From contig CANTAL010000143.1 of assembly GCA_947650365.1 (NCBI GenBank), positions 620,001-684,000 on the forward strand: 64,000 nucleotides of DNA, in the 5' to 3' direction. The notes beneath the pieces are model-generated. The model worked only from the letters and a program-made list of their open reading frames with translations. It was not told the DNA's origin and searched no databases. How positions within the stretch are numbered: the stretch's first letter is position 1; every line of letters begins with the position of its first letter. This document shows positions 5,951 to 64,000 of the stretch, piece by piece. The translations under genes and the position numbers were made by a program. Source of the stretch: Chamaelirium japonicum. Taxonomy: Eukaryota > Streptophyta > Magnoliopsida > Liliales > Melanthiaceae.

Positions 5951-6002
5951 CGATCCATTCTAATTCATTCGTACGATCGTACGAATGAATTAGAATGGAT
6001 CG
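5951..6002. repeat. 52-bp perfect palindrome at LTR/satellite border (J4)
   Basis: The first 26 bases of satellite (minus polarity) are the exact reverse complement of the next 26, centred on CGATCG at 5,976/5,977. It is the first polarity switch of the array and begins at the base after the LTR. Other J4 centres (CGTACGATCGTACG) lie at about 17,684, 39,427, 52,029 and 62,488, with a decayed one at 22,235. Confidence 0.95.
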
Positions 6003-7923
6003 TACGGAATGAATTAGAATGGATTGTATGAATGAATTAGAATGGATACATTCGTGCGAATGAATTAGAATGGATCATACGAAAGAGTAAGAATGGATCG
6101 TACGAATGAAATAGAATGGATTGTACGAATGAATTAGAATGGATCGTACAAATGAATTAGAATGGATCGTACGAATGAATTAGAATGGATCATACGAATG
6201 AGTAAGAATGGATCGTACAAATGAAATAGAATGGATTGTACGAATGAATTAGAATGGATCGTACGAATGAATTAGAATGGATCGTGTGAAAGAATTAGAA
6301 TGCATTGTATGAATGAATTAGAATGGATCGTATGAATGAATTAGAATGGATCGTGCGAATGAATTCGAATGAATCGCATGATCCATTCGAATATAATGGA
6401 TCGTATGAATGAATTAGAATGGATCGGGCGAATGAATTAGAATGGATTGTAGGAATGAATTAGAATGGATCGTATGAATGAATTAGAATAGATCGTATGA
6501 ATGAATTAGAATGGATCGTGCGAATGAATTAGAATGGATCGTACGAATGAATTAGAATGGATCGTACGAATGAATTAGAATGGATTATACGAATGAATTA
6601 GAATGGATCATACAAATGAGTAAGATTGGATCGTACGAATGAAATAGAATGGATTGTACGAATGAATTAGAATGGATACATTCGTGCGAATGAATTAGAA
6701 TGGATCGTACGAATGAATTAGAATGGATCGTACGAATGAATTAGAATGGATCGTACGAATGAATTAGAATGGATCGTACGAATGAATTAGAATGGATACA
6801 TTCGTGCGAATGAATTAGAATGGATCGAACGAATGAATTAGAATGGATCGTACGAATGAATTAGAATGGATCGTACGAATAAATTAGAATGGATCGTACG
6901 AATAAATTAGAATGGATACATTCGTCCGAATGAATTAGAATGGATCATACGAATGAGTAAGAATGGATCGTACGAATGAAATAGAATAGATTGTACGAAT
7001 GAATTAGAATGGATTCGTACGAATGAATTAGAATGGATACATTCGTGCGAATGAATTAGAATGGATCGTACCAATAAGTAAGAATGGATCGTACGAATGA
7101 AATAGAATGGATTGTGCGAATGAATTAGAATAGATCATACGAATGAATTAGAATGGATCGTACGAATGAATTAGAATGGATCCTATGAATGAATTAGAAT
7201 GGATCGTGTGAATGAATTAGAATGGATCGTACGAATGAATTAGAATGGATCGTGCTAATGAATTAGAATTGATCGAACGAATGAATTAGAATGGATGCAT
7301 TCGTGCGAATGAATTAGAATGGATCGGACGAATGAATTAGAATGGATTGTTCGAATGAGTAAGAATGGATCGTACGAATGAAATAGAATAGATCGTACGA
7401 ATGAATTAGAATGGATCGCACGAAGGAATTAGAATGGATCGTACGAATGAATTAGAATGGATATATTTGTGCAAATGAATTAGAATGGATCGTATGAGTT
7501 CATTAGAATGGATCGTACGAATGAATTAGAATGGATCGTATGAATGAATTAGAATGGATACATTCGTGTGAATGAATTAGAATGGATCGTGTGAATGAAT
7601 TAGAATAGATTTTGTGAATGAATTAGAACTGATCGTACGAATGAATTAGAATGGATACATTCGTGCGAATGAATTAGAATGGATTGTATGAATGAATCAG
7701 AATGGATCCTATGAATGAATTAGAATGGATCGTGCGAATGAATTAGAATGGATCGTACGAATGAATTAGAATGGATCGTGCTAATGAATTAGAATTGATC
7801 GAACGAATGAATTAGCATGGATCGTGCTAATGAATTAGAATGGAACGTACGAATGAATTAGAATGGATCGTGTGAAAGAATTAGAATGGATTGTATGAAT
7901 GAATTAGAATGAATTCGTACGAT
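5977..7923 (+). repeat. Satellite block, plus polarity
   Basis: J4 left, J1 right. Holds the inverted islet at 6,358-6,405 and the GTGCTAATG / TTAGCATGG marker set at about 7,740-7,850. CGTACGGAATG near 6,003 has an extra G, shared with copies at about 39,455, 43,431 and 62,515. Confidence 0.9.
6358..6405 (+). repeat. Inverted islet cassette (four copies, both orientations)
   Basis: A short reversed piece, GCATGATCCATTCGAAT, is embedded in a plus block and followed by CGGGCGAATG and TTGTAGGAATG monomers. A second plus copy is at about 52,568-52,612 with the same followers. Reverse-complement copies are at about 17,260-17,305 and 18,768-18,812, preceded by the reversed followers (CCTACAATCC, CGCCCGATCC). 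Confidence 0.8.
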
Positions 7924-7939
7924 CCATTCGAATTCATTC
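7907..7939. repeat. J1 junction cassette (first copy; about 16 canonical copies)
   Basis: Plus-to-minus switch: arms GAATGAATTCG and CGAATTCATTC, perfect reverse complements, flank an 11-bp spacer. Spacer TACGATCCATT (form A) occurs at 7,907, 11,264, 14,269, 24,092, 32,626, 38,993, 50,746, 57,316 and 61,572. The reverse-complement spacer AATGGATCGTA (form B) occurs at 18,064, 30,870, 31,532, 35,343, 46,622, 48,826 and 53,251. Flanks of A and B are also reverse complements of each other, so B is the A segment turned round. Decayed copies lie near 37,141, 39,807 and 54,421. Confidence 0.92.
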
Positions 7940-8978
7940 GCACGATCCATTCTAATTTATTCATACGATCCATTCTAATTCATTCATTCAATCCATTCTA
8001 ATTCTTTCACACGATCCATTCTAATTCATTCATAGGATCCATTCTAATTCATTCGTACAATCTATATTATTTCATTCGTACGATCCATTCTTACTCATTC
8101 GTATGATCCATTCTAATTCATTCGGACGAATGTATCCATTCTAATTTATTCGTACGATCTATTCTAATTCATTCGTACGATCCATTCTAATTCATTTGTA
8201 CGATCCATTCTAATTCATTCGTCCGATCCATTTTAATTCATTCGCACGAATGTATCCATTCTAATTCATTCGTACGATCCATTCTAATTCATTCATACGA
8301 TCCATTCTAATTTATTCGTAAGATCCATTCTAATTCATTCGTATGATCCATTCTAATTCATTCGTACGATTCATTCTAATTCATTCGCACGAATGTATCC
8401 ATTCTATTTCATTCGTACGATCCATTCTAATTCATTCATACAATCCATTCTAATTCATTCGCACGAATGTATCCATTCTAATTCATTCGTACGATCAGTT
8501 CTAATTCATTCACAAAATCTAATCTAATTCATTCATACGATCCATTCTAATTCATTCACACGAATGTATCCATTCTAATTCATTCATACGATCCATTCTA
8601 ATTCATTCGTACGATCCATTCTAATTCACTCATACGATCCATTCTAATGCATTCATACGATCCATTCTAATTCATTTGCACGAATATATCCATTCTAATT
8701 CATTCGTACGATCCATTCTAATTCATTTGTACGATCCATTCTAATTTATTCGTACGATCCATTCTAATTTTTTCGTACGATCCATTCTAATTCATTCGTA
8801 CGATCCATTCTAATTCATTCATACAATCCATTCTAATTCTTTCGCACGATCCATTCTAATTCATTCGTACGATCCATTCTAATTCATTCGTGCAATCCAT
8901 TCTATTTCATTCGTACGATCCATTCTTACTCATTCGTACGATCCAATCTAATTCATTCACACGAATGTATCCATTCGT
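7924..8978 (-). repeat. Satellite block, minus polarity
   Basis: J1 left, J3 right. It opens with the variant order seen after nearly every form-A J1: TTCTTTCACACG, then AGGATCC, TACAATCTAT, TTACTCATTCG and CGGACGAATG. Confidence 0.9.
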
Positions 8979-8995
8979 ACGAATGAATTAGAATA
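8960..8995. repeat. J3 junction (about eight copies, both orientations)
   Basis: Minus-to-plus switch on the 14-bp palindrome CATTCGTACGAATG. One form reads GTATCCATTCGTACGAATG then AATTAGAATAG (8,978, 21,104, 27,555, 38,206, 40,879). The reverse-complement form reads CTATTCTAATTCATTCG then TACGAATGGATAC (15,223, 25,454, 60,694). Centres are given. Confidence 0.88.
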
Positions 8996-10132
8996 GATTG
9001 TACGAATGAATTAGAATGGATCGTACGAATGAATTAGAATGGATCGTACGAAGGATTTAGAATGTATCGTACGAATGAGTAAGAATGGATCGTACGAATG
9101 AAATAGAATAGATCGTACGAATGAATTAGAATGGATCGTAGGAAGGAATTAGAATGGATCGTACGAATGAATTAGAATGGATATATTCGTGCAAATGAAT
9201 TAGAATGGATCGTATGAATGTATTAGAATGGATCGTATGAGTGAATTAGAATGGATCGTACGAATGAATTAGAATGGATCGTATGAATGAATTAGAATGG
9301 ATACATTCGTGTGAATGAATTAGAATGGATCGTATGAATGAATTAGAATAGATTTTGTGAATGAATTAGAACTGATCGTACAAATGAATTAGAATGGATA
9401 CATTCGTGCGAATGAATTAGAATGGATTGTATGAATGAATTAGAATGGATCCTATGAATGAATTAGAATGGATCGTACGAATGAATTAGAATGGATACAT
9501 TCGTGCGAATTAATTAGAATTGATCGTACGAATGAATTAGAATGGATCGTGCGAATGAATTAGAATGGATCGTACGAATGAATTAGAATGGATACATTCG
9601 TGCGAATGAATTAGAATGGATACATTCGTGAAAGAATTAGAATAGATCGTATGAATGAATTAGAATGGATCCTATGAATGAATTAGAATGGATCGTGCGA
9701 ATGAATTAGAATGGATCGTACGAATGAATTAGAATGGATCGTGCTAATGAATTAGAATTGATCGAACGAATGAATTAGCATGGATCGTGCTAATGAATTA
9801 GAATGGATCGTACGAATGAATTAGAATGGATCAAATGAATGAATTAGAATTGTTACATTCATGCGAATGAATTAGAATGGATCGTACGAATGGATTAGAA
9901 TGGATCGTACGAATGGATTAGAATGGATACATTCGAGCGAATGAATTAGAATGGATCGTACGAATGAATTAGAATGGATCATACGAATGGATTAGAATGG
10001 ATCCTACGAATGGATTAGAATGGATACCTTTGTGCATATGAATTAGAATGGATCGTACGAATGAATTAGAATGGATCATATTAATGAATTAGAATGGATC
10101 GTACGAATCAATTAGAATGGATACATTCGTGC
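8979..10132 (+). repeat. Satellite block, plus polarity
   Basis: J3 left; the right switch, CATTCGTGCACGATCC, was seen once. Contains one GGTTACATTCATGCG-type higher-order block (about 9,820-10,040), here with TTGTTACATTCATGCG. Confidence 0.88.
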
Positions 10133-10298
10133 ACGATCCATTCTAATACATTCGCACGAATGTATCCATTCTAATTCATTCGTACGATCCATTCTAATTC
10201 ATTAGTATGATCCATTCTAATTCATTCGTACGATCCATTCTAATTCATATGCACAAAGGTATCCATTCTAATTCATTCGTACGATCCATTCTAATTCA
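10133..10298 (-). repeat. Short satellite block, minus polarity
   Basis: Ends at J5 and carries the odd monomer CATATGCACAAAGGTATCC. Confidence 0.85.
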
Positions 10299-10315
10299 GG
10301 ATCGTACGAATGAAT
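10285..10315. repeat. J5 junction (four copies, both orientations)
   Basis: Minus-to-plus switch reading AATTCAGGATCGTACG at about 10,298, 31,011 and 35,455. The reverse complement, CGTACGATCCTGAATT, is at about 37,060. CATATGCACAAAGGTATCC or its complement lies on the expected side in all four. Confidence 0.85.
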
Positions 10316-11280
10316 TAGAATAGATATATTCGTGCGAGTGAATTAGAATTGATCATACGAATGAATTAGAATGGATCGTGCGAATGAATTAGAATGGATC
10401 GTACGAATGAATTAGAATGGATCGTACGAATGAACTAGAATGGATACATTCGTGCGAATGAATTAGAATGGATCGTACGAATGAATTAGAATGAATCATA
10501 CGAATGAATTAGAATGGATCTTACGAATGAATTAGAATGGATCGTACGAATGAATTAGAATGGATACATTCGTGCGAATGAATTAGAATGGATCGGACGA
10601 ATGAATTAGAATGGATCGTACGAATGAATTAGAATGGATCAAATGAATGAATTAGAATGGTTACATTAATGCGAATTAATTAGAATGGATCGTACGAATG
10701 GATTAAAATGGATCGTACGAATGGATTAGAATGGATACATTCGAGCGAATGAATTTGAATAGATCGTACGAATGAATTAGAATGGATCGTACGAATGGAT
10801 TAGAATGGATCCTACGAATGGATTAGAATGGATACCTTTGTGCATACGAATTAGAATGGATCGTACGAATGAATTAGAATGGATCGTACGAATGAATTAG
10901 AATGGATACATTCGTGCGAATGAATTAGAATGGATATATTCGTGCGAAAGAATTAGAATAGATCGTATGAATGAATTAGAATGGATCCTATGAATGAATT
11001 AGAATGGATCGTGCGAATGAATTAGAATGGATCGTACGAATGAATTAGAATGGATCGTGCTAATGAATTAGAATAGATCGAACGAATCAATTAGCATGGA
11101 TCATGCTAATGAATTAGAATGGAACGTACGAATGAATTAGAATGGATCGTGTGAAAGAATTAGAATGGATTGTATGAATGAATTATAATGAATTAGAATA
11201 GAACGTACGAATGAATTAGAATGGATCGTGTAAAAAATTAGAATGGATTGTATGAATGAATTAGAATGAATTCGTACGAT
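10299..11280 (+). repeat. Satellite block, plus polarity
   Basis: J5 left, J1 right. Contains a GGTTACATT block near 10,640-10,850 and the GTGCTAATG marker set near 11,055-11,130. Confidence 0.88.
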
Positions 11281-13846: not shown

Positions 13847-13866
13847 ATGGATCATACGAATGAGTA
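13826..13866. repeat. J2 junction (eight copies, both orientations)
   Basis: Minus-to-plus switch on CCATNATGG. The form GTATCCATAATGGATC is at 13,846, 53,982 and 56,938. The reverse complement, GATCCATTATGGATAC, is at 32,106, 47,008, 61,195 and 63,001, with variant CCAATATGG at 49,235. GAGTAAG monomers follow in one form and CTTACTC monomers precede in the other, as expected for one inverted segment. Confidence 0.88.
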
Positions 13867-14285
13867 AGAATGGATCGTACGAATGAAATAGAATGGATTG
13901 TGCGAATGAATTAGAATGGATCGTACGAATGAATTAGAATGGATCGTACGAATGAATTAGAATGGATCATTCGAATGAATTAGAATGGATACATTCGTGC
14001 GAATGAATTAGAATGGATACATTCGTGCGAAAGAATTAGAATAGATCGTATGAATGAATTAGAATGGATCCTATGAATGAATTAGAATGGATCGTGCGAA
14101 TGAATTAGAATGGATCGTACGAATGAATTAGAATGGATAGTGCTAATGAATTAGAATTGATCGAACGAATGAATTAGCATGGATCATGTTAATGAATTAG
14201 AATGGAACGTACGAATGAATTAGAATGGATCGTGTGAAAGAATTAGAATGGATTGTATGAATGAATTAGAATGAATTCGTACGAT
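13847..14285 (+). repeat. Satellite block, plus polarity
   Basis: J2 left, J1 right; ends with the GTGCTAATG / TTAGCATGG marker set. Confidence 0.88.
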
Positions 14286-14970: not shown

Positions 14971-15010
14971 GCTAATGAATTAGAATGGATCGTACGATCC
15001 AATCTAATTC
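14960..15010. repeat. J9: tiny plus islet between minus blocks (two copies)
   Basis: About 26 bp of plus polarity (GCTAATGAATTAGAATGG) lie between minus sequence, entered through CACGATCCATGCTAATG and left through CGTACGATCCAATC. The second copy is at about 26,210-26,255. Confidence 0.85.
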
Positions 15011-15223
15011 ATTCATACGATCCATTCTTACTCATTCGTATGATCCATTCTAATTCAATCGTACGATACATTCTAATTCATTCGTACGATCCATTCTAAT
15101 TTCATCGTACGATCCATTCTAATTCATTCGTACGATCCATTCTAATTCATTCGTACGATCCATTCTAATTCCTTCGTACGATCCATTCTAATTCATTCGT
15201 ACAATCTATTCTAATTCATTCGT
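14997..15223 (-). repeat. Satellite block, minus polarity
   Basis: J9 left, J3 right; mostly near-consensus monomers. Confidence 0.85.
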
Positions 15224-18080: not shown

Positions 18081-20310
18081 TCGTACGAATTCATTCTAAT
18101 TCATTCATACAATCCATTCTTATTCTTTCACACGATCCATTCTAATTCATTCGTACGTTCCATTCTAATTCATTAGCACGATCCATGCTAATTCATTCGT
18201 TCGATCAATTCTAATTCATTAGCACGATCCATTCTAATTCATTCGTCTGATCCATTCTAATTCATTCGCATGATCCATTCAAATTCATTCATAGGATCCA
18301 TTCTAATTCATTCATACGATCTATTCTAATTCTTTCGCACGAATGTATCCATTCTAATTCATTCGCACGAATGTATCCATTCTAATTCATTCGTACGATC
18401 CATTCTAATTCATTCGTACGATCCATTCGAATTCATTCGCACGATCCATTCTAATTCATTCATATGATCCATTCTAATTCATTCATACAATCCATTCTAA
18501 TTCTTTCACACGATCCATTCTAATTCATTCGTACGATCCATTCTAATTCATTCGTACAATCCATTCTATTTCATTCGTACGATCCATTCTTACTCATTCG
18601 TATGATCCATTCTAATTCATTCGTATGATCCATTCTAATTCATTCATACGATCCATTCTAATTCATTCGCACGATCCATTCTAATTCATTCATACGATCC
18701 ATTCTAATTCATTCCTACAATCCATTCTAATTCATTCGCCCGATCCATTCTAATTCATTCATACGATCCATTCTATTCGAATGGATCAGATGATCCATTC
18801 GAATTCATTCGCACGATCTATTCTAATTCATTCATACGATCCATTCTAATTCATTCAGACAATGCATTCTAATTCTTTCACACGATCCATTCTAATTCAT
18901 TCGTACGATCCATTCTAATTCATTCGTACGATCTATTCTAATTCTTTCGCACGAATGAATCCATTCTAATTCATTCGCACGAATGTATCCATTCTAATTC
19001 ATTCGTACGATCCATTCTAATTCATTCGTACGATCCATTTTAATTCATTTATACGATCTATTCTAATTCATTCATACAATCCATTCTAATTCTTTCACAC
19101 GATCCATTCTAATTCATTCGTACGATCCATTCTAATTCATTCGCACAATCCATTCTATTTCATTCGTACGATCCATTCTTACTCATTGGTACGATCCATT
19201 CTAATTCATTCGCACGAATGTATCCATTCTAATTCATTCGTATGAATCCATTCTAATTTATTCGTACAATCCATTCTATTTCATTCGTACGATCCATTCT
19301 TACTCATTCGTATGATCCATTCTAATTCATTCGCACGAATGTATCCATTCTAAATCATTCGTACGATCCATTCTAATTCATTCGTACGATCCATTCTAAA
19401 TCATTCGTACAATCCATTCTATTTCATTCGTACGATCAAGTCTAATTCATTAGCACGATCCATTCTAATTCATTCGTACGATCCTTTCAAATTCATTCGC
19501 ACGATCCATTCTAATTCATTCGTACAATCCATTCTATTTCATTCGTACGATCCATTCTTACTCATTCGTATGATCCATTCTAATTCATTCGCACGATTGT
19601 ATCCATTCTAATTCATTCGTACGATCCATTCTAATTCATTCATACAATCCATTCTAATTCTTTTACACGATCCATTCTAATTCATTCGTACGATCCATTC
19701 TAATTCATTCGTACAATCCATTCTATTTCATTCGTACAATCCATTCTTACTCATTCGTATGATCCATTCTAATTCATTCGCACGAATGTATCTATTCTAA
19801 TTCATTCGTACGATCCATTCTAATTCATTCGTACGATCCATTCTAATTCATTCAGACGATCCATTCTAATTCATTCATACAATCCATTCTAATTCAATCG
19901 CACGATCCATTCGAATTCATTCGCACGATCCATTCTAATTCATTTATACGATCCATTCTAATTCATTCGCATGATCCATTCGAATTCATTCGCACGATCC
20001 ATTCTAATTCATTCGCACGAATGTATCCATTCTAATTCATTCGTATGATCCATTCTAATTCATTCGTACAATCCATTCTTATTCCTTCGTACGATCCATT
20101 CTAATTCATAAATTCATTCTTACGATCCATTCTAATTCATTTGCACAATCTATTCTAATTCATTCATACGATCCATTCTAATTCATTCGTACGATCCATT
20201 CTAATTCATTCATACGATCCATTCTAATTCATTCGCACGAATGTATCCATTCTAATTCATTCGTACGATCCTTTCTAATTCATTCGTACAATCCATTCTA
20301 TTTCATTCGT
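18081..20310 (-). repeat. Satellite block, minus polarity (2.2 kb)
   Basis: J1 left; the right switch is on CATTCGTACGAATG without the J3 flanks. Holds the reversed GTGCTAATG set near 18,175-18,240 and an islet at about 18,768-18,812. Confidence 0.9.
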
Positions 20311-21104: not shown

Positions 21105-21546
21105 ACGAATGAATTAGAATAGATTATACGAATGATATAGAATGGATTGTACGAATGAATTAGAATGTATCGTACGAAGGAATTAGAATGGATCGTACGA
21201 ATGAATTAGAATGGATCGTACGAATGAATTAGAATGGATCGTACGAATGAATTAGAATAGATCGTACGAAGGAATTAGAATGGATATATTCGTGCAAATG
21301 AATTAGAATGGATCGTATGAGTGAATTTGAATGGATCGTACGAATGAATTAGAATGGATCGTATGAATGAATTAGAATGGATACATTCGTGTGAATGAAT
21401 TAGAATGAATCATATGAATGAATTAGAATAGATTTTGTGAATGAATTAGAACTGATCGTACGAATGAATTAGAAGGGATACATTCGTTCGAATGAATTAG
21501 AATGGATACATTAGTGCGAATGAATTAGAAAGGATTGTATGAATGA
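21105..21546 (+). repeat. Satellite block, plus polarity
   Basis: J3 left. The TTTTGTGAATG then GAACTGATCG monomer pair is shared with copies near 7,610, 9,350, 43,220 and 48,040. The right switch is GAATGAATTCATTC. Confidence 0.85.
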
Positions 21547-22235
21547 ATTCATTCATACGATCCATTCTAATTCATTCATACGATCTATTCTAATTCTTTC
21601 ACACGAATGTATCCATTCTAATTCATTCGCACGAATGTATCCATTCTAATTCATTCGTACGATCTATTCTAATTCATTCGTACGATCCATTCTAATTCAT
21701 TCGTACGATCCATTCTAATTCATTCGTACGATCAATTCTAATTCTTTCGCACGAATGTATCCATTCTAATTTATTCGTACATACGATCCATTCTAATTCA
21801 TTCACACGAATGTATCCATTCTAATTCATTTATATAATCCAATCTATTTCATTCGTACGATCCATTCTTACTCATTCGTATGATCCATTCTAATTCATTC
21901 GCACGAATGTATCCATTCTAAATCATTCGTACGATCCATTCTAATTCGTTCACACAATCCATTCTATTTCATTCGTACGATCCATTCTTACTCATTCGTA
22001 TGATCCATTCTAATTCCTTCGTACGATCCATTCTATTTCATTCGTATGATCCATTCTAATTCCTTCATACGATCCATTCTAATTCCTTCGTATGCATTCT
22101 AATTTACTAAAACGATCCATTCTAATTCATTCGTACGATCCATTCTAATTCATTTGCACGAATATATCCATTCTAATTCATTCGCACGATCTATTCTAAT
22201 TCATTCGCACGATCCATTCTAATTAATTCGTACGA
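21547..22235 (-). repeat. Satellite block, minus polarity
   Basis: Right end is a decayed J4 (CGTACGATCGTGC). Many CCTTCGTAC monomers. Confidence 0.85.
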
Positions 22236-22297
22236 TCGTGCTAGTGAATTAGAATGGATCGTACGAATGAATTAGAATGGATACATTCGTGCGAATC
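22236..22297 (+). repeat. Very short satellite block, plus polarity
   Basis: About 60 bp, less than three monomers, between two minus blocks. Confidence 0.8.
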
Positions 22298-23137: not shown

Positions 23138-23149
23138 TTTGAATGGATC
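23126..23149. repeat. 24-bp perfect palindrome at a polarity switch
   Basis: GATCCATTCAAA is followed directly by its reverse complement TTTGAATGGATC. Seen once in the window, so possibly a recent switch. Confidence 0.95.
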
Positions 23150-24108: not shown

Positions 24109-25454
24109 CCATTCGAATTCATTCGCACGACCCATTCTAATTCATTCATACGATCCATTCTAATTCATTCATACAATCCATTCTAATTCTTTTACACGAA
24201 CCATTCTAATTCATTCGTAGGATCCATTCTAATTCATTCGTACAATCTATTCTATTTCATTCGTACGATCCATTCTTACTCATTCGTATGATCCATTCTA
24301 ATTCATTCGGACAAATGTATCCATTCTAATTTATTCGTACGATCCATTCTAATTCATTCGTACGATCCATTCTAATTCATTCGTCCGATCCATTCTAATT
24401 CATTCGCACGAATGTATCCATTCTAATTCATTCGTACGATCCATTCTAATTCATTCGTACGATCCATTCTAATTCATTCGTAAGATCCATTCTAATTCAA
24501 TTCATTCGCACGAATGTATCCATTCTAGTTCATTCGTACGATCCATTCTATTTCAGTCGTACGATCCATTCTAATTCATTCGCACGATCCATTCTAATTC
24601 ATTCGTACGATCCATTATAATTCATTCATACGATCCATTCTAATTCATTCGTACGATCCATTCTAATTCATTCGCACAAATGTATCCATTCTAATTCATT
24701 CGTACGATCCATTCTAATTCATTCGCATGATCCATTCTAATTCATTCGTACGATCCATTCTAATTCTTTCACACGATCCATTCTAATTCATTCGTACGAT
24801 CCATTCTAATTCATTCGCATGATCAATTCTAATTTATTCATACGATCCATTCTAATTCATTCATACGATCCATTCTAATTCATTCGTACGATCCATTCTA
24901 ATTCATTCGCACAAATGTATCCATTCTAATTCATTCATATGATCCATTCTAATTCATTCGCACGATCCATTCTGATTCATTCGTATGATCCATTCTAATC
25001 CATTCGCACGATCTGTTCTTATTCATTCGCACAATCCATTCTAATTCATTCGCACGAATGTATCCATTCTAATTCATTCGTACGATCCATTCTAATTCAT
25101 TCGTATGATCTATTCAAATTAATTCGTATGATCCATTCTAATTCATTCGTACGAACCATTCTAATTCATTCATACAATCCATTCTAATTCATTCGTACGA
25201 TCCATTCTAATTCACTCATACGATCCATTCTAATACATTCATACGATCTATTCTAATTCATTTGCACGAATATATCCATTCTAATTCATTCGTACGATCC
25301 ATTCTAATTCCTTCGTACGATCCATTCTAATTCATTCATACGATCTATTCTAATTCATTCGTACGATCCATTCTAATTCATTCGTACGATCCATTCTAAT
25401 TCCTTCGTACGATCCATTCTAATTCATTCGTACAATCTATTCTAATTCATTCGT
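24109..25454 (-). repeat. Satellite block, minus polarity
   Basis: J1 left with the standard following variant run, J3 right. Confidence 0.88.
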
Positions 25455-25662
25455 ACGAATGGATACATTTGTGTGAATGAATTAGAATGGATCGTACGAA
25501 TGAGTAAGAATGGATCGTACGAATGAAATAGAATGGATTGCACGAATAAATTAGAATGGATCGTACGAATGAATTAGAATGGATCGTGTGAAAGAATTAG
25601 AATGGATTGTATGAATGAATTAGAATGGATCGTACGAATTAATTAGAATGGATCGTACTAGG
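25455..25662 (+). repeat. Short satellite block, plus polarity
   Basis: J3 left, J6 (GTACTAGGATCC) right. The whole block, with both junctions, recurs at 60,695-60,899. Confidence 0.87.
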
Positions 25663-26220
25663 ATCCATTCTAATTCATTCGTACAATCTATTCTATTTCA
25701 TTCGTACGATCCATTATTACTCATTCGTATGATCCATTCTAATTCATTCGGACGAATCTATCCATTCTAATTTATTCGTACGATCCATTCTAATTCATTC
25801 GTACGATCCATTCTAATTCATTCGTACGATCCATTCTTACTCATTCGTATGATCCATTCTAATTCATTCGTACGATCCATTCTAATTCATTCTTACGATC
25901 GATTCTAATTCATTCGCACTATCCATTCTAATTCATTCGTACGATCCATTCTAATTCATTCGTATGATCCATTCTAATTTATTCATTCAAATATATCTAT
26001 TCTAATTCATTCGTACGATCCATTCTAATTCATTCGCACGATCTATTCTAATTCATTCGCACGAATGTATCCATTCTAATTCATTTGCACGATCCATTCT
26101 AATTCATTCCTATGATCTATTTTAATTCATTCGTACGATCCATTCTAATTCATTCTAATTCATTCGTACGATCCATTCTAATTCATTCGTATATTCCATT
26201 CGAATTCATTAGCTCGATCC
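25663..26220 (-). repeat. Satellite block, minus polarity
   Basis: J6 left, J9 right; second copy of the 14,480-14,970 segment. Confidence 0.87.
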
Positions 26221-26244
26221 ATGCTAATGAATTAGAATGGATCG

Positions 26245-27555
26245 TACGATCCAATCTAATTCATTCATACGATCCATTCTTACTCATTCGTATGATCCAT
26301 TCTAATTCAATCGTACGATCAATTCTAATTCATTCGTACGATCCATTCTAATTCCTTCGTACGATCCATTCTAATTCATTCGTAAGATCCATTCTAATTC
26401 CTTCGTACGATCCATTCTAATTCATTCGTACGATCCATTCTAATTCATTCGCGCAATCTATTCAAATTAATTCGTACGATCCATTCTAATTCATTCGTAC
26501 GATCCATTCTAATTCATTCGCACGAATGTATCTATTCTAATTCATTCGTACGATCCATTCTAATTCATTCGCACAATCTATTCTAATTCATTCATATGAT
26601 CCATTCTATTTCATTCGCACGAATGTATCCATTCTAATTCATTCAGACGATCCATTCTACTTCATTCTTACTATCTGTTCTAATTCACTCATACGATCCA
26701 TTCTAATTCATTCATACGATCCATTCTAATTCATTTGCACGAATATATCCGTTTTAATTCATTCGTACGATCCATTCTAATTCCTTCGTACGATCTTTTC
26801 TAATTCCTTCGTACGATCCATTCTAATTCCTTCGTACGATCCATTCTATTTCATTCGTATGATCCATTCTAATTCCTTCGTACGATCCATTCTAATTCCT
26901 TCGTATCCATTCTAATTCACTCATACGATCCATTCTAATTCATTCGTACGATCCATTCTAATTCATTCATACAATCCAATCTAATTCATTCGCACGAATG
27001 TATCCATTCTAATTCATTCGTACGATCAGTTCTAATTCATTCACAAAATCTATTCTAATTCATTCATACGACCCATTCTAATTCATTCACACGAATGTAT
27101 CCATTCTAATTCATTCATACGATCCATTCTAATTCATTCGTACGATCCATTCTAATTCACTCATACGATCCATTCTAATACATTCATACGATCCATTCTA
27201 ATTCATTTGCACGAATATATCCATTCTAATTCATTCGTACGATCCATTCTAATTCCTTCGTACGATCTATTCTAATTCATTCGTACGATCTATTCTAATT
27301 CATTCATACGATCCATTCTAATTCATTCGTATGATCCATTCTAATTCCTTCATACGATCCATTCTAATTCATTCGTACGATCCATTCTAATTCATTCATA
27401 CAATCCATTCTAATTCTTTCACACGATCCATTCTAATTCATTCGTACGATCCATTCTAATTCATTCGTGCAATCCATTCTATTTCTTTCGTACGATCCAT
27501 TCTTACTCATTCGTACGATCCATTCAAATTCATTCACACGAATGTATCCATTCGT
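26245..27555 (-). repeat. Satellite block, minus polarity (1.3 kb)
   Basis: J9 left, J3 right; includes runs of CCTTCGTAC monomers near 26,780-26,910. Confidence 0.88.
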
Positions 27556-47008: not shown

Positions 47009-48842
47009 ATGGATACATTCGTGCGAATGAATTAGAATGGATCATACGAATGAGTAAGAATGGATCGTACGAATGAAATAGAATGGATTGTCCGAATGAA
47101 TTAGAATGGATCGTACGAATGAATTAGAATGGATCGTGTGAAAGAATTAGAATGGATTGTATGAATGAATTAGAATAGATCGTATGAATGAATTAGAATG
47201 GATCGTACGAATGAATTAGAATGGATCGTACGAACGAACTAGAATGGATACATTCGTACGAATGAATTAGAATGGATCGTACGAATGAATTAGAATGGAT
47301 CGTACGAATGAATAAGAATGGATCTTACGAATGAATTAGAATGGATCGTACGAATGCACGATCCATGTGAATGAATTAGAATAGATCGTACGAATGAATT
47401 AGAGTGGATACATTCGTGCGAATGAATTAGAATGGATCGTACGAATTAATTAGAATGGATCGTATGAATGAATTAGAATGGATCGTACGAATGAATTAGA
47501 ATGGATACATTCGTGCGAATGAATTAGAATGGATACATTCGTGCGAAAGAATTAGAATAGATCGTATGAATGAATTAGAATGGATCCTATGAATAAATTA
47601 GAATGGATCGTGCGAATGAATTAGAATGGATCGTACGAATGAATTAGAATGGATCGTGCTAATGAATTAGAATTGATCGAACGAATGAATTAGAATGGAT
47701 ACATTCGTGCGAATGAATTAGAATGGATCGGACGAATGAATTAGAATGGAACGTACGAATGAGTAAGAATGGATCGTACGAATGAAATAGAATAGATCGT
47801 ACGAATGAATTAGAATGGATCGTACGAAGGAATTAGAATGGACCGTACGAATGAATTAGAATGGATATATTCGTGCAAATGAATTAGAATGGATCGTATG
47901 AATGTATTAGAATGGATCATACGAGTGAATTAGAATGGATCATACGAATGAATTAGAATGGATCGTATGAATGAATTAGAATGGATACATTCGTCTGAAT
48001 GAATTAGAATGGATCGTATGAATGAATTAGAATAGATTTTGTGAATGATTTAGAACTGATCGTACGAATGAATTAGAATGGATACATTCGTGCGAATGAA
48101 TTAGAATGGATTTTATGAATGAATTAGAATGGATCGTACGAATTAATTAGAATGGATCGTATGAATGAATTAGAATGGATCGTGCGAATGAATTAGAATA
48201 GATCGTACGAATGAAATAGAATGGATACATTTGTGCGAATGAATTAGAATGGATCGTACAAATGAATTAGAATGGATCGTATGAATGAATTAGAATGGAT
48301 CGTACGAATGAATTAGAATGGATCGTGCGAATGAATTAGAATGGATCGTGCGAATGAATTAGAATGGATCGTACGAATGAACTAGAATGGATACATTCGT
48401 GTGAATGAATAGAATGGATCGTACGAATGAATTAGAATGGATCATACGAATGAATTAGAATGGATCTTACGAATGAATTAGAATGGATCGTACGAATGAA
48501 TTAGAATGGATCGTACGAATGAATTAGAATGGATACATTCATGCGAATGAATTAGAATGGATCGGACGAATGAATTAGAATGGATCGTACGAATGAATTA
48601 GAATGGATCGTACGAATAAATTAGAATGGATACATTCGTCCGAATGAATTAGAATGGATCATACGAATGAGTAAGAATGGATCGTACGAATAAAATAGAA
48701 TAGATTGTACGAATGAATTAGAATGGATCCTAAGAATGAATTAGAATAGATCGTGTGAAAGAATTAGAATGGATTGTATGAATGAATTAGAATGGATCGT
48801 ATGAATAAATTAGAATGGATCGTGCGAATGAATTCGAATGGA
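47009..48842 (+). repeat. Satellite block, plus polarity (1.8 kb)
   Basis: J2 left, J1 right. GAATGCACGATCCATG at about 47,355 is a small reversed piece shared with 49,578 and 63,325. Confidence 0.88.
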
Positions 48843-54438: not shown

Positions 54439-54517
54439 ACGAATTCATTCTAATTCATTCATACAATCAATTCTAATTCTTTCACACGATCCATTCTAAT
54501 TCATTCGTACGTTCCAT
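54439..54517 (-). repeat. Very short satellite block, minus polarity
   Basis: About 80 bp; the right switch is CGTTCCATTAATGAATTAG, seen once. Confidence 0.8.
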
Positions 54518-56502: not shown

Positions 56503-56750
56503 CATTAGAATGGATCGTACGAATGAATTAGAATGGATCGTACGAATGAATTAGAATGGATCGTACGAATGAATTAGAATGGATCCTACGAATGAATTAG
56601 AATGGATCGTGTGAAAGAATTAGAATGGATTGTATGAATGAATTAGAATGGATCGTATGAATGAATTAGAATGGATCGTGCGAATGAATTAGAATTGATC
56701 GAACGAATGAATTAGAATGGATCGTGCTAATGAATTAGAATAGAACGTAC
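56503..56750 (+). repeat. Satellite block, plus polarity
   Basis: Right switch CGTACGAATTCATTC resembles half of J1. Confidence 0.83.
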
Positions 56751-56937
56751 GAATTCATTCATACGATCTATTCTAATTCATTCATACAATCCATTCTAAT
56801 TCTTTCACACGATCCATTCTAATTCATTCGTACGATCCATTCTAATTGATTCGCACAATCCATTCTATTTCATTCGTACGATCCGTTCTTACTCATTCGT
56901 ATGATCCATTCTAATTCATTCGCACGAATGTATCCAT
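56751..56937 (-). repeat. Short satellite block, minus polarity
   Basis: J2 right. Confidence 0.83.
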
Positions 56938-57332
56938 AATGGATCATACGAATGAGTAAGAATGGATCGTACGAATGAAATAGAATGGATTGTGCGAATG
57001 AATTAGAATGGACCGTACGAATGAATTAGAATGGATACATTCGTGCGAATGAATTAGAATGGATCCGACGAATGAATTAGAATGGATCGTACGAATGAAC
57101 TAGAATGGATCGTACGAAATGAATTAGAATGGATCGTACGAATAAATTAGAATGGATACATTCGTCCGAATGAATTAGAATGGATCATACGAATGAGTAA
57201 GAATGGATCGTACGAATGAAATAGAATAGATTGTACGAATGAATTAGAATGGATCCTACGAATGAATTAGAAAAGATCGTGTGAAAGAATTAGAATGGAT
57301 TGTATGAATGAATTAGAATGAATTCGTACGAT
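56938..57332 (+). repeat. Satellite block, plus polarity
   Basis: J2 left, J1 (form A) right; includes the reversed post-J1 variant run. Confidence 0.87.
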
Positions 57333-60300
57333 CCATTCGAATTCATTCGCACGATCTATTCTAATTCATTCATACGATCCATTCTAATTCATTCATACAA
57401 TCCATTCTAATTATTTCACACGATCCATTCTAATTTATTCGTAGGATCCATTCTAATTCATTCGTACAATCTATTCTATTTCATTCGTACGATCCATTCT
57501 TACTCATTCGTATGATCCATTCTAATTCATTCGGATGAATGTATCCATTCTAATTTATTCGTACGATCCATTCTAATTCATTCGTACGATCCATTCTAAT
57601 TCATTCGTACGATCCATTCTAATTCATTCGTCCGATCCATTCTAATTCATTCACACGAATGTATCCATTCTAATTAATTCGTAGGATCCAATCTAATTCA
57701 TTCGTACGATCCATTCTAATTCATTCGTAAGATCCATTCTAATTCATTCAAACAATCTATTCTAATTCATTCGTACGATCCATTCTAATTCATTCGCACG
57801 ATCCATTCTAATCCATTCTAATTCATTTGTACGATCCATTCTAATTCATTCATACGATCCATTCTAATTCATTCGTACGATCTATTCTAATTCATTCGTA
57901 CGATCCATTCTAATTCATTCGTACGATCCATTCTAATTCATTCGTGCAATCCATTCTATTTCATTCGTACGATCCATTCTAATTCATTTGTACGATCCAT
58001 TCTAATTCATTCGTACAATCCATTCTATTTCATTCGTACGATCCATTCTTACTCATTCGTATGATCCATTCTAATTCATTAGCACGATCCATTCTAATTC
58101 ATTCGTACGATCCATTCTAATTCATTCGAACGATCCATTCTAATTCATTCGTACGATCCATTCTAATTCTTTCACACGATCCATTCTAATTCATTCGTAC
58201 GATCCATTCTAATTCATTCGTACGATCTATTATAATTCATTCGTACGATTCATTCTAATTCATTCGTACGATCCATTCTAATTCCTTCGTACGATCCATT
58301 CTAATTCATTCATACAATCCATTCTAATTCTTTCACACGATCCATTCTAATTCATTCGTACGTTCCATTCAAATTCATTCGCACGATCCATGCTAATTCA
58401 TTTGTTCGATCAATTCTAATTCATTAGCACGATCCATTCTAATTCATTCGCACGATCCATTCTAATTAATTCAAGGGATCCATTCTAATTCATTCATACG
58501 ATCTATTTTAATTCTTTCGCACGAATGTATCCATTCTAATTCATTCGCACGAATGTATCCATTCTAATTCCTTCGTACGATCCATTCTAATTCATTCGTA
58601 CGATCCATTCTAATTCATTCATACAATCCATTCTAATTCGTTCACACGATCCATTCTAATTCATTCGTACGATCCATTCTAATTCATTCGTGCAATTCAT
58701 TCTAATTCATTCGTACGATCCATTCTAATTCATTTGTACGATCCATTCTAATTCATTCGTACAATCCATTCTATTTCATTCATACGATCCATTCTTACTC
58801 ATTCGTATGATCCATTCTAATTCATTCGCACGAATGTATCCATTCTAATACATTCATACAATCCATTCTAATTCATTCTGTACGATCCATTCTAATTCAT
58901 TCGCATGAATGTAACCATTCTAATTCATTCATTTGATCCATTCTAATTCATTCATTTGATCCATTCTAATTCATTCGTACGATCCGTTCTAATTCATTCG
59001 TCCGATCCATTCTTATTCATTCGCACGAATGTATCCATTCTAATTCATTCATACGATCCATTCTAATACATTCGTACGATCCATTCTAATTCATTCGTAA
59101 GATCCATTCTAATTCATTCGTACGATCTATTCTAATTCATTCGTACGATCCATTCTATTTCATTCGCACGAATGTATCCATTCTAATCCATTCGTACGAT
59201 CCATTCTAATCCATTCGTACGATTCATTCCAATTCATTCGCATGAATGTAACGATTCTAATTCATTCATTTGATCCATTCTAATTCATTCGTACAATCTA
59301 TTCTAATTCATTCGTACGATCCATTCTAATTCATTCGTACGATCCATTCTAATTCATTCGTCCGATCCATTCTAATTCATTCGCACGAATGTATCCATTC
59401 TAATTCATTCGTACGATCCATTCTAATCCATTCTAATTTTTTCACAAAATCTATTCTAATTCATTCATACGATCCATTCTAATTCATTCACACGAATGTA
59501 TCCATTCTAATTCATTCATACGATCCATTCTATTCATTCGTACGATCCATTCTTACTCATTGGTACGATCCATTCTAATTCATTCGCACGATCCATTCTA
59601 ATTCATTCGTACGATCCATTCTAATTCATTCATACGATCCATTCTAATTCATTCGTACGATCCATTCTAATTCATTCGTACGATCCATTCTAATTCATTC
59701 GCACGAATGTATCCATTCTAGTTCATTCGTACGATCCATTCTAATTCATTCGTACGATCCATTCTAATTCATTCGCACGATCCATTCTAATTCATTCGTA
59801 CGATCCATTCTAATTCATTCATACGATCCATTCTAATTCATTCGTACGATCCATTCTAATTCATTCGCACAAATGTATCCATTCTAATTCATTCGTAGGA
59901 TCCATTCTAATTCATTCGCACGATCCATTCTAATTCATTCGTATGATCCATTCTAATTCTTTCACACGATCCATTCTAATTCATTCGTATGATCCATTAT
60001 AATTCATTCGCACGATCCATTCTAATTCAATCGTTCGATCCATTCTAATTCATTCATTTGATCCATTCTAATTCATTCGTACGATCCATTCTAATTCATT
60101 CGTTCGATCCATTCTAATTCATTCTATTCATTCGTACGATCCATTTTTACTCATTGGTACGATCCATTCTAGTTCATTCGTACGATCCATTCTAATTCAT
60201 TCGTACGATCCATTCTAATTCATTCGTACGATCCATTATAATTCATTCGTACGATCAGTTCTTATTCATTCGCACAATCCATTCTAATTCATTCGCACGA

Positions 60301-60694
60301 ATGTATCCATTCAATTTCATTCGTACGATCCATTCTAATTCATTCGTACGATCCATTCTAATTTATTCGTATGATCCATTCTAATTAATTCGTACGATCC
60401 ATTCTAATTCATTCGTACGATCCATTCTAATTCATTCATACAATCCATTCTAATTCATTCGCACGAATGTATCCATTCTAATTAATTCGTACGATCCATT
60501 CTAATTCATTCGTATGATCCATTCTAATTCATTCGCACAATCCATTCTATTTCATTCGTACGATGCATTCTTACTCATTGGTACGATCCATTCTAATTCA
60601 TTCGCACGAATGTATCCATTCTAATTCATTCGCACAATCCATTCTAATTCATTCGCATGAATGTATCCATTCTAATTCATTCTAATTCATTCGT
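57333..60694 (-). repeat. Longest minus-polarity block (3.4 kb)
   Basis: J1 left, J3 right. Contains a reversed GTGCTAATG set near 58,385-58,430 and reversed GGTTACATT blocks near 58,900 and 59,180-59,280. Confidence 0.9.
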
Positions 60695-60899
60695 ACGAAT
60701 GGATACATTCGTGTGAATGAATTAGAATGGATCATACGAATGAGTAAGAATGGATCGTACGAATGAAATAGAATGGATTGCACGAATGAATTAGAATGGA
60801 TCGTACGAATGAATTAGAATGGATCGTGTGAAAGAATTAGAATGGATTGTATGAATGAATTAGAATGGATCGTACGAATAAATTAGAATGGATCGTACT
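60695..60899 (+). repeat. Short satellite block, plus polarity
   Basis: J3 left, J6 right; second copy of 25,455-25,662. Confidence 0.87.
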
Positions 60900-61195
60900 A
60901 GGATCCATTCTAATTCATTCGTACAATCTATTCTATTTCATTCGTACGATCCATTCTTACTCATTCGTATGATCCATTCTAATTCATTCGGACGAATGTA
61001 TCCATTCTAATTTATTCGTACGATCCATGCTAATTCATTCGTACGATCCATTCTAATTCATTCGTCCGATCCATTCTAATTCATTCGCACGAATGTATCC
61101 ATTCTAATTCATTCGTACGGTCCATTCTAATTCATTCGCACAATCTATTCTATTTCATTCGTACGATCCATTCTTACTCATTCATATGATCCATT
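60900..61195 (-). repeat. Satellite block, minus polarity
   Basis: J6 left, J2 right; variant run CGGACGAATG, TACGGTCC, TACTCATTC as at 62,661-63,001. Confidence 0.86.
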
Positions 61196-61588
61196 ATGGA
61201 TACATTCGTGCGAATGAATTAGAATGGATCATACGAATGAGTAAGAATGGATCGTACGAATGAAATAGAATGGATTGTGCGAATGAATTAGAATGGATCG
61301 TATGAATGAATTAGAATGGATCGTGTGAAAGAATTAGAATGGATTGTATGAATGAATTAGAATAGATCGTATGAATGAATTAGAATGGATCGTACGAATG
61401 AATTAGAATAGATCGTACGAATGAATTAGAATGGATCGTACGAATAAATTAGAATGGATACATTCGTCCGAATGAATTAGAATGGATCATACGAATGAGT
61501 AAGAATTGATCATACGAATGAAATAGAATAGATTGTATGAAAGAATTAGAATGGATTGTATGAATGAATTAAAATGAATTCGTACGAT
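61196..61588 (+). repeat. Satellite block, plus polarity
   Basis: J2 left, J1 right. Confidence 0.86.
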
Positions 61589-62488
61589 CCATTCGAATTC
61601 ATTCGCACGATCCATTCTAATTCATTCATACGATCCATTCTAATTCATTCATACAATCCATTCTAATTCTTTCACATGATCCATTCGAATTCATTCGTAG
61701 GAACCATTCTAATTCATTCGTACAATCTATTCTATTTCATTCGTACGATCAATTCTTACTCATTCGTATGATCCATTCTAATTCATTCGGACGAATGTAT
61801 CCATTCTAATTTATTCGTACGATCCATTCTAATTCATTCGTACGATCTATTCTTATTCATTCGTACGATCCATTCTAATTCATTCATACAATCTATTCTA
61901 ATTCATTCATACGATCCATTCTAATTCATTCGCAATATCCATTCTAATTCATTCGTACGATCCATTCTAATTCATTCGCACGAATGTATCCATTCTAGTT
62001 CATTCGTACGATCCATTCTAATTCATTCGTACGATCCATTCTAATTCATTCATACAATCCATTCTAATTCATTCGCACGATCCATTCTAATTCACTCATA
62101 CGATCCATTCTAATACATTCATACAATCCATTCTAATTCATTTGCACGAATATATCCATTCTAATTTATTCGTATTTCATACGATCCATTCTAATTCATT
62201 CGTAGGATCCATTCTAATTCATTCGTACAATCTATTCTATTTCATTCATACGATCCATTCTTACTCATTCGTATGATCCATTCTAATTCATTCGGACGAA
62301 TGTATCCATTCTAATTTATTCGTACGATCCATTCTAATTCATTTGTACGATCCATTCTAATTCATTCGTACGATCCATTCTTACTCATTCGTATGATCCA
62401 TTCTAATTCATTCGTACGATCTATTCTAATTCATTCGTATGATCCATTCTAATTCATTCGCACAATCTATTCTAATTCATTCGTACGA
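61589..62488 (-). repeat. Satellite block, minus polarity
   Basis: J1 left, J4 right. Confidence 0.87.
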
Positions 62489-62660
62489 TCGTATGAATGA
62501 AATAGAATGGATCGTACGGAATGAATTAGAATGGATTGTATGAATGAATTAGAATGGATACATTTGTGCGAATGAATTAGAATAGATAATACGAATGAGT
62601 AAGAATGGATCGTACGAATGAAATAGAATGGATTGTACGAATGAAATAGAATGCATTGTA
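62489..62660 (+). repeat. Short satellite block, plus polarity
   Basis: J4 left; third copy of the 5,977 / 39,428 start, with CGTACGGAATG. Confidence 0.85.
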
Positions 62661-63001
62661 TGATCCATTCTTACTCATTCGTATGATCCATTCTAATTCA
62701 TTCGGACGATCTATTCTATTTCATTCGTACGATCCATTCTTACTCATTCGTATGATCCATTCTAATTCATTCGGACGAATGTATCCATTCTAATTTATTC
62801 GTACGATCCATTCTAATTCATTCGTACGATCCATTCTAATTCATTCGTACGATCCATTCTAATTCATTCGTCCGATCCATTTTAATTCATTCGCACGAAT
62901 GTATCCATTCTAATTCATTCGTACGGTCCATTCTAATTCATTCGCACAATCCATTCTATTTCATTCGTATGATCCATTCTTACTCATTCGTATGATCCAT
63001 T
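62661..63001 (-). repeat. Satellite block, minus polarity
   Basis: J2 right; two CGGACGA variants 65 bp apart. Confidence 0.85.
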
Positions 63002-63330
63002 ATGGATACATTCGTGCGAATGAATTAGAATGGATCATACGAATGAGTAAGAATGGATCGTACGAATGAAATAGAATGGATTGTGCGAATGAATTAGAAT
63101 GGATCGTACGAATGAATTAGAATGGATCGTGTGAAAGAATTAGAATGGATTGTATGAATGAATTAGAATAGATCGTATGAATGAATTAGAATGGATCGTA
63201 CGAATGAATTAGAATGAATCGTACGAATGAACTAGAATGGATACATTCGTGCGAATGAATTAGAATGGATCGTACGAATGAATTAGAATGGATCTTACGA
63301 ATGAAGTAGAATGGATCGTACGAATGCACG
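63002..63330 (+). repeat. Satellite block, plus polarity
   Basis: J2 left; copy of 47,009-47,360 ending in GAATGCACGATCAATG. Confidence 0.86.
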
Positions 63331-63643
63331 ATCAATGCTAATTCATTCGTTCGATCAATTCTAATTCATTAGCACGATCCATTCTAATTCATTCGTACGA
63401 TCCATTCTAATTCATTCGCACGATCCATTCTAATTCATTCGTACGATCCATTCTAATTCTTTCACACGATCCATTCTAATTCATTCGTACGATCCATTCT
63501 AATTCATTCGTACGATCTGTTCTAATTCATTCGTACGATCCATTCTAATTTCATTCGTACGAACCATTCTAATTCATTCGCTCAATGTATCCATTCTAAT
63601 CCATTCGTACGATCTATTCTAATCCATTCGTACGATCCATTCT
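63331..63643 (-). repeat. Satellite block, minus polarity
   Basis: Opens with the reversed GTGCTAATG set; the right switch, CCATTCTAGATTGTGCG, was seen once. Confidence 0.85.
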
Positions 63644-63897
63644 AGATTGTGCGAATGAATTAGAATGGATCGTATGAATGAATTAGAATGGATACATTCG
63701 TGCGAATTAATTAGAATGGATCGTATGAATGAATTAGAATAGATTGTGCGAATGAATTAGAATGGATCGTACGAATGAATTAGAATGGATTGCACGAATG
63801 AATTAGAATAGATTGCCCGAATGAATTAGAATGGATCGTGCGAATGAAATAGAATAGATACAAATGAATTAGAATGGATCATACGAATGAATTAGAA
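63644..63897 (+). repeat. Satellite block, plus polarity
   Basis: J7 right; shared with 35,700-35,956 apart from an indel. Confidence 0.85.
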
Positions 63898-64000
63898 TGA
63901 CGATCCATTCTTACTCATTCGTATGATCCATTCTAATTTATTCGTACGAATGTATCCTTTCTAATTCATTCGTACGTCTAATTCATTCGTATGGTCCATT
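63898..64000 (-). repeat. Satellite block, minus polarity, cut by window end
   Basis: J7 left; follows 35,957-36,055 closely, including ACGTCTAATTC. Confidence 0.85.

Follow-up and report, generated by a model that had tools for sequence, protein, structure and literature searches.

Recurrent inversion joins, probably spread by copying, in the polarity mosaic of a Chio-type centromeric satellite

The polarity mosaic of the satellite array described here is built for the most part from a limited number of inversion joins, which recur with their flanking variants, singly or in composites and in both orientations. The array lies in a 64,000-nt window of Chamaelirium japonicum (contig CANTAL010000143.1, positions 620,001 to 684,000; C155 below) and, judging from its published properties, can be identified as Chio1/Chio2, the satellite of Chionographis japonica centromeres. 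The alternating orientation of this satellite has already been published; what is new is that the switches examined look, in most cases, to have been copied from a small number of older switches. It is likely that a few founder joins were spread by a copying process blind to orientation. The features discussed are collected in Table 1.

Table 1. Features of the 64,000-nt window (positions count from its first base).
Feature	Position	Strand	Remarks
3' part of Ty3/gypsy-type LTR retrotransposon in array	1..5950	+	integrase frame end 1-771; 3' LTR 5034-5950
Chio-type satellite array	5951..64000		23- and 28-bp monomers, 76 polarity switches; extends beyond window on both sides
CGATC, probable target-site duplication	5951..5955		equals the 5 bases preceding the 5' LTR; weak alone
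Reverse-block remnant cut by LTR element	5951..5974	-	HMM blocks
J1 switch family, forward to reverse, commonest join	7883..7942		19 of 76 window switches
24-bp forward block, its two switches copied together	14974..14997	+	second window copy 26226-26249
Candidate independent switch at 21550	21537..21558		perfect 22-bp palindrome; best C155-region copy only 86% alike
K1 switch family, reverse to forward, second commonest	25427..25486		exact core genome-wide 4,849 + 5,064
Four-switch composite	25457..26250	+	switches 25457, 25659, 26226, 26250; near-equal spacing on C1 and C2
Second copy of the composite's first two switches	60697..60899	+	202 bp apart; sequence diverges past 60899

Polarity was called with a two-strand, polarity-aware circular profile HMM of the 23-mer, which yielded 77 blocks between 5950 and 64000, with a median length of 525 bp, a mean of 754 bp and extremes of 11 and 3,678 bp; 27,841 bp fall to the forward polarity and 30,210 bp to the reverse. 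The reversals are real: a preliminary description had counted about 72 switches and 73 blocks, the gap being a few blocks of 11-50 bp, and its longest block of 3.7 kb and strand balance of 28 and 30 kb agree with the HMM. The window contains 739 forward and 790 reverse exact copies of GAATTAGAATGG, and polarity changes 71 times from one such copy to the next. The HMM switch counts, in the window and in the C155 region, exclude a head-to-tail array in which a few flips are artefacts. The satellite had been described as one of 23 bp, and this monomer is present (220 + 234 exact copies in the window), but 28-bp monomers, GATACATTCGTGCGAATGAATTAGAATG, are mixed in with it (57 + 59 exact copies). 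On the reverse strand, GATCGTACGAATGAATTAGAATG reads CATTCTAATTCATTCGTACGATC, that is, the 23-bp monomer with TTCGTACGA. Across the 1.52-Gb assembly (1,518,659,071 bases in 3,253 contigs, including C1 of 137 Mb and C2 of 123 Mb), the exact 23-mer has 1,110,541 forward and 1,124,000 reverse occurrences, 2,234,541 in all, and the same 23-mer read backwards without complementing has no match genome-wide. Extrapolation from 1,413 exact 23-mers per approximately 163 kb of array, with the C155 region assumed to be typical, puts the satellite at about 258 Mb, or 17% of 1.519 Gb. Seven of a set of eight stretches carry no satellite and do not enter the counts.

Position 5951 is excluded as a genuine border of the array, because an LTR element interrupts the array there and satellite resumes to its left; on C155 the array spans from approximately 565,900 to approximately 718,100 (window coordinate approximately 98,160). 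The whole element measures 12.2 kb, starts at C155:613789 and lies between CGATC repeats inside the array, with 13 differences over 914 aligned sites between its two LTRs. As evidence of a target-site duplication CGATC is weak, since it also occurs in the monomer. The switch at 5975 falls within a perfect 54-bp palindrome (5950-6003) whose first base is the final base of the LTR. The element bears on the possibility that the switches are a product of assembly. Satellites are difficult to assemble, but the blocks average 0.75 kb against mean lengths of 14, 15, 20 and 26 kb in the published HiFi libraries (58.5x, hifiasm, if this assembly is the published one), identical joins recur exactly thousands of times, and the element lies inside the array, flanked on both sides by the same 5 bp. 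Given the join recurrence and the HiFi lengths, an assembly origin is unlikely, and we give it next to no credence.

The commonest join, J1, reappears on the opposite strand as the joins at 18092, 30898, 31560, 35371, 46650 and others. Among the 205 switch calls in C155:540001-764000, which include at least one singleton at an LTR edge, 39 are J1 members, their two orientations standing at 20:19, and the exact J1 core is found 7,603 + 7,646 times genome-wide. A TTCGAATGG variant lies beside the join in 32 of the 39 members and is rare in the C155 region (81 occurrences vs. 4,900 of TTAGAATGG). The densities of J1 and K1 in the C155 region exceed those genome-wide by a factor of about 2.6-2.7, so that local amplification accounts for part of their abundance there.

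Joins also recur in linked sets. A 43-bp pattern spanning both switches of the 24-bp block is present 1,573 + 1,583 times genome-wide, and 3,156 of the 3,860 genome-wide occurrences of the CAATC-variant join lie within this exact pattern, with the second switch 24 bp off. For the J11 joins listed on C1 below 27.95 Mb, 17 of 35 are followed on their own strand, at 504-600 bp, by this same pair of switches, and every other 200-bp bin up to 5 kb away holds at most two. The four-switch composite, which recurs in both orientations, was present at all eight loci fetched (six on C1, two on C2), six of which had been chosen because listings already showed linked joins, the two C2 loci having been taken without such a choice. 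In the comparison of copies from C1, C2 and C155, 10 of 11 were 96-98% identical across approximately 1.1 kb, and the copies did not group by chromosome; one of the three C155 copies compared diverges past the second switch.

Copying was tested directly on 75 of the 76 window switches, the switch at 5975 being too close to the LTR. Over 160 bp, 52 of the 75 have another C155-region switch at least 95% alike, compared with 4 of 75 random joins, 4 of 75 joins with 4-bp microhomology and 11 of 75 with 8-bp microhomology; this level is relied on because the test is lenient towards gaps (random-join median 0.91). The contrast is weaker at 92% (57 of 75 vs. 26, 29 and 43 of 75 in the respective controls), and six of the 75 lack a copy above 88% in the C155 region. 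The spacing of adjacent switches from the same two families coincided within 3 bp in 51 pairwise cases over 202 adjacent pairs, compared with a mean of 1.4 and a maximum of 6 in 1,000 permutations. Additionally, a self-comparison covering about 159 of the 163 kb of array (C155:714,500-718,160 and 741,111-741,400 left out) found 339 segment pairs of at least 300 bp at 93% identity or more, 159 direct and 180 inverted, against 5, 10 and 7 in monomer-shuffled controls. Paired segments lie a median of about 50 kb apart whether they are direct or inverted, and one near-tandem pair of 4.6 kb is present. With these orientations and distances, the C155 region does not have the structure of a classical higher-order repeat, tandem and in one orientation; the comparison applies to this region.

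The clustering of join sequences was set aside as proof of copying, since joins forced to share 4 bp cluster too (largest clusters 25-48 of 100); the case for copying is built instead on the spacing, the linked variants and the composites. Twelve join families were profiled for flank identity, in a comparison where palindromic joins have ambiguous orientation and the profile extends past the next switch. A 21-member family with a CGTACG axis has no raised identity on either side, and some others, among them a 15-member GATC-axis family, one of 8 and one of 5, have it mainly on one side. These families may have several origins. In a rival reading, every switch arose separately, by foldback or microhomology at the monomer's palindromic parts (CGTACG, GATC, AATT), with recurrence reflecting few permissive sites, as would fit the 21-member family, the clustering of microhomology-biased random joins and the joins that lie on perfect palindromes (5975, 54 bp; 21550, 22 bp; 20307, 18 bp). 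Neighbouring switches at fixed spacing, the rare variant linked to J1, the recurrence of one four-switch composite on separate chromosome-sized contigs and the lack of any special likeness between a switch's own arms speak against it. For the major families, whose flanks are shared, independent events are contradicted by these data, and they are improbable overall. Most window switches being copies of others, the earlier statement that the satellite reverses about 72 times holds for the switches but overstates the number of reversal events.

The predicted single-stranded folding of the switches is strong, with 150-nt stretches across switches (n = 4) at -37 to -50 kcal/mol and stretches of the same length inside blocks (n = 4) at -8 to -15 kcal/mol. 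Compared within join types, the two 200-bp arms of a switch resemble each other no more than arms from different switches do, giving no sign of preserved long palindromes; this asymmetry also rules out recent foldback duplications as a general cause. The foldback potential noted earlier is thus borne out as predicted folding at the switches but not as long palindromes that have been kept, and a functional role for foldbacks, although possible, is unsupported. Selection could maintain the alternation if long foldbacks or balanced polarity aided the formation of CENH3 chromatin, in keeping with the near balance of the two strands genome-wide, the strong predicted foldbacks at all four switches folded and the discussion of dyad symmetry at centromeres in a review. 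However, orientation-blind copying would be expected to yield the same balance, the arms are not kept as palindromes, and block lengths (208 blocks) are roughly exponential (KS p of about 0.2 after fitting of the mean; coefficient of variation 0.92), which is what a random process would give. The CENH3 arrays of Chamaelirium luteum are also reported in a single orientation, so that centromeres of that tribe can do without switching. Selection is therefore quite improbable as the explanation. The suggestion of a centromere fits, the array matching the published CENH3-bound Chio satellite. Overall, the satellite and switches of the preliminary description are confirmed and its interpretation is partly supported.

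In the copying process favoured here, a few joins would have arisen long ago, probably via strand switching or end joining at palindromic monomer parts. Segments carrying them, from some hundreds of bp up to several kb in length, would then have been copied, irrespective of orientation, both within arrays and from one centromere unit to another, through break-induced replication, non-allelic conversion or the re-insertion of circles. A copied segment would carry its switches, so that alternation would persist without a fresh reversal each time; flips via recombination between oppositely oriented monomers may contribute. A more ordinary explanation is that crossing over between opposed monomers flips segments and that copies arise only by direct tandem duplication. 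Flips of this kind keep joins intact and would yield equal orientations, but tandem duplication alone explains neither the copies on different chromosome-sized contigs nor the distances shared by direct and inverted pairs, leaving this explanation doubtful.

How the centromere units became distributed along this plant's chromosomes is stated as unknown in PMC12722358. Our judgement is evenly divided on the broader proposal that the centromere units of this holocentric plant swap multi-kilobase mixed-polarity composites across chromosomes regardless of orientation, in which case the switches would be tags of seeding between units, and orientation-blind copying, not unequal crossing over, would be the main route of holocentromere spread and uniformity. 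If the switches are copied modules, they would provide thousands of tags with position and orientation, copying routes between units could be traced, and models of unequal crossing over, conversion, break-induced replication and circle insertion could be separated. A polarity switch in a satellite should accordingly not be taken as necessarily a separate inversion or a selected hairpin.

Among known systems, TmSat1/TmSat2 of Tribolium madens are likened to the plant array by organisation: polarity changes occur at recurrent conserved inversion sites in likely (peri)centromeric arrays, one type being reported as 98.2% conserved over 6,428 sites (PMC13081366), and conserved recurrent inversion sites are found in the plant array as well. 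The beetle arrays are described as mostly two sub-arrays of several kb tending to symmetry (PMC13081366), whereas the plant blocks are short, the arms asymmetric and the switches gathered in multi-switch composites; long sub-arrays symmetric about an inversion were not seen in its block lengths or arm comparison. The Chama satellite of the sister genus, from Chamaelirium luteum, is CENH3-positive and has TTCGTACGA in common, but is reported with a 60-bp monomer, consistent orientation over hundreds of kb and no retrotransposons inside (PMC12722358). The closest likeness is to Chio1/Chio2, reported as CENH3-bound and of alternating orientation (PMC10264360, PMC12722358), with monomers of 23 and 28 bp that differ by 5 bp and one substitution (PMC10264360), the TTCGTACGA motif (the comparison being of the motif), a genome share of approximately 16-17%, arrays that mix forward and reverse monomers and an 8-bp dyad pairing of neighbouring monomers. 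The main text of these papers reports the mixed orientations without an analysis of joins or copied multi-switch composites (PMC10264360, PMC12722358), and the CL73 higher-order repeat cluster that they name may be related.

From window position 5951 onward, the satellite has the consensus GATCGTACGAATGAATTAGAATG, and a two-strand circular HMM divided it into 77 single-polarity blocks (median 525 bp, maximum 3,678 bp) separated by 76 polarity switches, with 27,841 bp in the forward and 30,210 bp in the reverse polarity. A simple exact-match test with a 12-mer gave 739 forward and 790 reverse occurrences and 71 switches; both approaches bear out the preliminary description of about 72 reversals between nearly balanced strands. 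Over 208 HMM blocks, lengths are compatible with an exponential distribution (KS p about 0.2, mean fitted). The window covers positions 620001-684000 of its contig (C155), on which the array spans from about 565,900 to about 718,100, LTR insertion included, and resumes near 741,100. Three tiny opposite-polarity pieces in the window (see table), the joins of which have best copies of only 84-89%, are possibly independent micro-inversions or HMM noise.

Additionally, a 28-bp monomer, GATACATTCGTGCGAATGAATTAGAATG, corresponds to the 23-mer with five extra bases and one substitution (57 + 59 exact copies in the window vs. 220 + 234 of the 23-mer). The exact 23-mer occurs 2,234,541 times in the assembly (1,518,659,071 bases in 3,253 contigs) and 1,413 times in about 163 kb of array in the C155 region (C155:540001-764000); extrapolated from these counts, the satellite would make up about 17% of the genome. 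The primary assembly of Kuo et al. 2023 is given as 1,526,137,861 bp (PMC10264360). From agreement with published descriptions, we infer that the satellite is Chio, the CENH3-bound centromeric satellite of holocentric Chionographis japonica; the available text of PMC12722358 names the Chio 9-mer TTCGTACGA and terms its polarity 'frequently alternating orientation'. Descriptions of this satellite and of its changing polarity are already in print.

Within the C155 region, the HMM placed 205 switches. At 85% identity over 60 bp, the 103 forward-to-reverse ones form 21 join clusters, the largest comprising 39 members, and the 102 reverse-to-forward ones form 19, the largest comprising 26. The largest cluster among simulated control joins held 6-9 per 100 for uniform random joins and 25-48 for joins sharing a forced 4 bp; since the latter cluster too, clustering alone could reflect repeated origin. 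In the largest family, TTCGAATGG adjoins the join in 32 of 39 members, and this variant occurs 81 times in the C155 region vs. 4,900 occurrences of the usual form. Flank identity within 12 profiled families, with values lowered where the profile continues past the next switch, exceeded the control of 0.87 for 100-200 bp to one or both sides in most cases; it was raised chiefly on one side in a 15-member GATC-axis family and in two smaller families (8 and 5 members), and on neither side in a 21-member family with the axis CGTACG. Another switch at least 95% similar over 160 bp was found for 52 of 75 window switches vs. 4 random, 4 4-bp microhomology and 11 8-bp microhomology controls (each of 75), and at 92% these values were 57 vs. 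26, 29 and 43. Switch 21550 lies in a perfect 22-bp palindrome with a best copy of 86%, and a minority of switches such as this one may be independent foldback events. Per exact monomer, the C155 region holds cores of J1 and K1, the commonest forward-to-reverse and reverse-to-forward families, at about 2.6-2.7 times their genome-wide density, indicating that join sets vary among arrays.

The switches are also linked to one another. Among 202 adjacent pairs, those composed of the same two families showed 51 spacing coincidences within 3 bp, whereas 1,000 permutations averaged 1.4 and never exceeded 6. Genome-wide, the join GAATGGATCGTACGATCCAATCTAATTC occurs 1,936 + 1,924 times, and 82% of these fall in a 43-bp pattern (1,573 + 1,583) that extends the join across a second switch 24 bp off; a plain variant of the same join occurs 3,751 + 3,774 times, a tally in which the palindrome makes some sites count twice, once per strand. 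A further join, J11, occurs 381 + 424 times genome-wide. Of the 35 J11 joins listed below 27.95 Mb of the chromosome-sized contig C1, 17 (6 plus, 11 minus) are followed on their own strand by this two-switch module at a downstream distance of 504-600 bp; no other 200-bp bin out to 5 kb, with both sides and both strands considered, holds more than two modules. Six such loci on C1 (picked among linked ones with strands in view) and two on C2 (taken without a prior linkage check) were fetched, and all eight, four in each orientation, carry four switches at near-constant positions relative to the J11 core (-196 to -173, +6, +540 to +585 and +564 to +609). Over about 1.1 kb, identity among these loci and two of three C155 copies is 96-98%. 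The remaining C155 copy, at 60893, diverges past the second switch (78-79%), and the first two switches occur together a fourth time in C155 (122176, spacing 200), a pair that the J11 core search missed. The best matches of these loci, at 93-95%, span as much as the whole 2 kb retrieved, other pairs ending earlier, and C1-C2 copies are as similar as copies within C1. Among the matches listed in C1:2512648-2862587, at least five pairs of K1 joins lie exactly 1,706 bp apart, a pattern suggestive of recent duplications spanning tens of kb in this stretch.

When about 159 kb of array was compared with itself (at least 300 bp, 93%), 339 non-redundant segment pairs emerged; 159 were direct, with a median distance of 49 kb, and 180 were inverted, with a median of 55 kb. 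Three monomer-shuffled controls yielded 5, 10 and 7. Three other C155 stretches matched the C155 region 40, 21 and 26 times (direct:inverted 17:23, 12:9 and 15:11), and a C1 stretch (L028) 17 times (11:6). Own-arm similarity was not above foreign-arm similarity (0.653 vs. 0.671 for 68 switches; 0.607 vs. 0.643 for 70). Combined, the joins recur, are linked, occur in both orientations and are present on several chromosome-size contigs. We propose that a few founder joins arose and that segments were then copied irrespective of orientation. Break-induced replication, the mechanism that a recent review prefers for satellites (available text of PMC12321929), and non-allelic conversion, proposed for Chio in PMC12722358, are candidate routes. 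By either one, an opposite-polarity template could be copied once a monomer anneals there. Circle insertion is another possible copying route, and later flips between oppositely oriented monomers possibly contributed.

The LTR element at the left edge cuts a reverse block that predates the insertion. An alignment of its two LTRs shows 13 differences in 914 sites, plus two gaps, and CGATC flanks the element on either side; a substitution rate of 1.3e-8 per site and year, as used for LTRs of grasses, would date the insertion to about half a million years ago. Antisense frames are known in Ty3/gypsy Tat elements, and a Pfam search of the 477-codon antisense frame gave no match at 0.001.

Coordinates of features in the window and of recurrent K1 pairs on C1
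Feature	Location	Strand	Remarks
Integrase end	window 1-771		Pfam rve, 3.1e-08
Minisatellite	window 882-1279		78 bp, 5.1 copies, 95% matches; between integrase end and antisense frames
Antisense open frame	window 2991-4424	minus	477 codons; within LTR element
3' LTR	window 5034-5950		part of element whose 5' LTR begins at C155:613789
Short tandem repeat	window 5316-5435		AGCTCGCCCA, GC-rich; in 3' LTR
Opposite-polarity piece	window 18775-18790		15 bp
Opposite-polarity piece	window 22234-22284		50 bp
Opposite-polarity piece	window 47358-47369		11 bp
1,706-bp K1 pairs	C1 2512648, 2682614, 2757165, 2808763, 2836546		

The foldback potential raised in the preliminary description holds up in prediction, with strands spanning a switch able to fold strongly (four switches folded), as is expected for any opposite-polarity join. 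Polarity switching as a centromere requirement finds no support; in Chamaelirium luteum, of the sister genus, CENH3 arrays are described as of single orientation in the available text of PMC12722358. The literature listings and the freely available article text that were covered contained no description of the joins in Chio or of composites with mixed polarity. A precedent for recurrent joins is provided by the Tribolium madens satellite, for which the available text of PMC13081366 describes conserved inversion sites.
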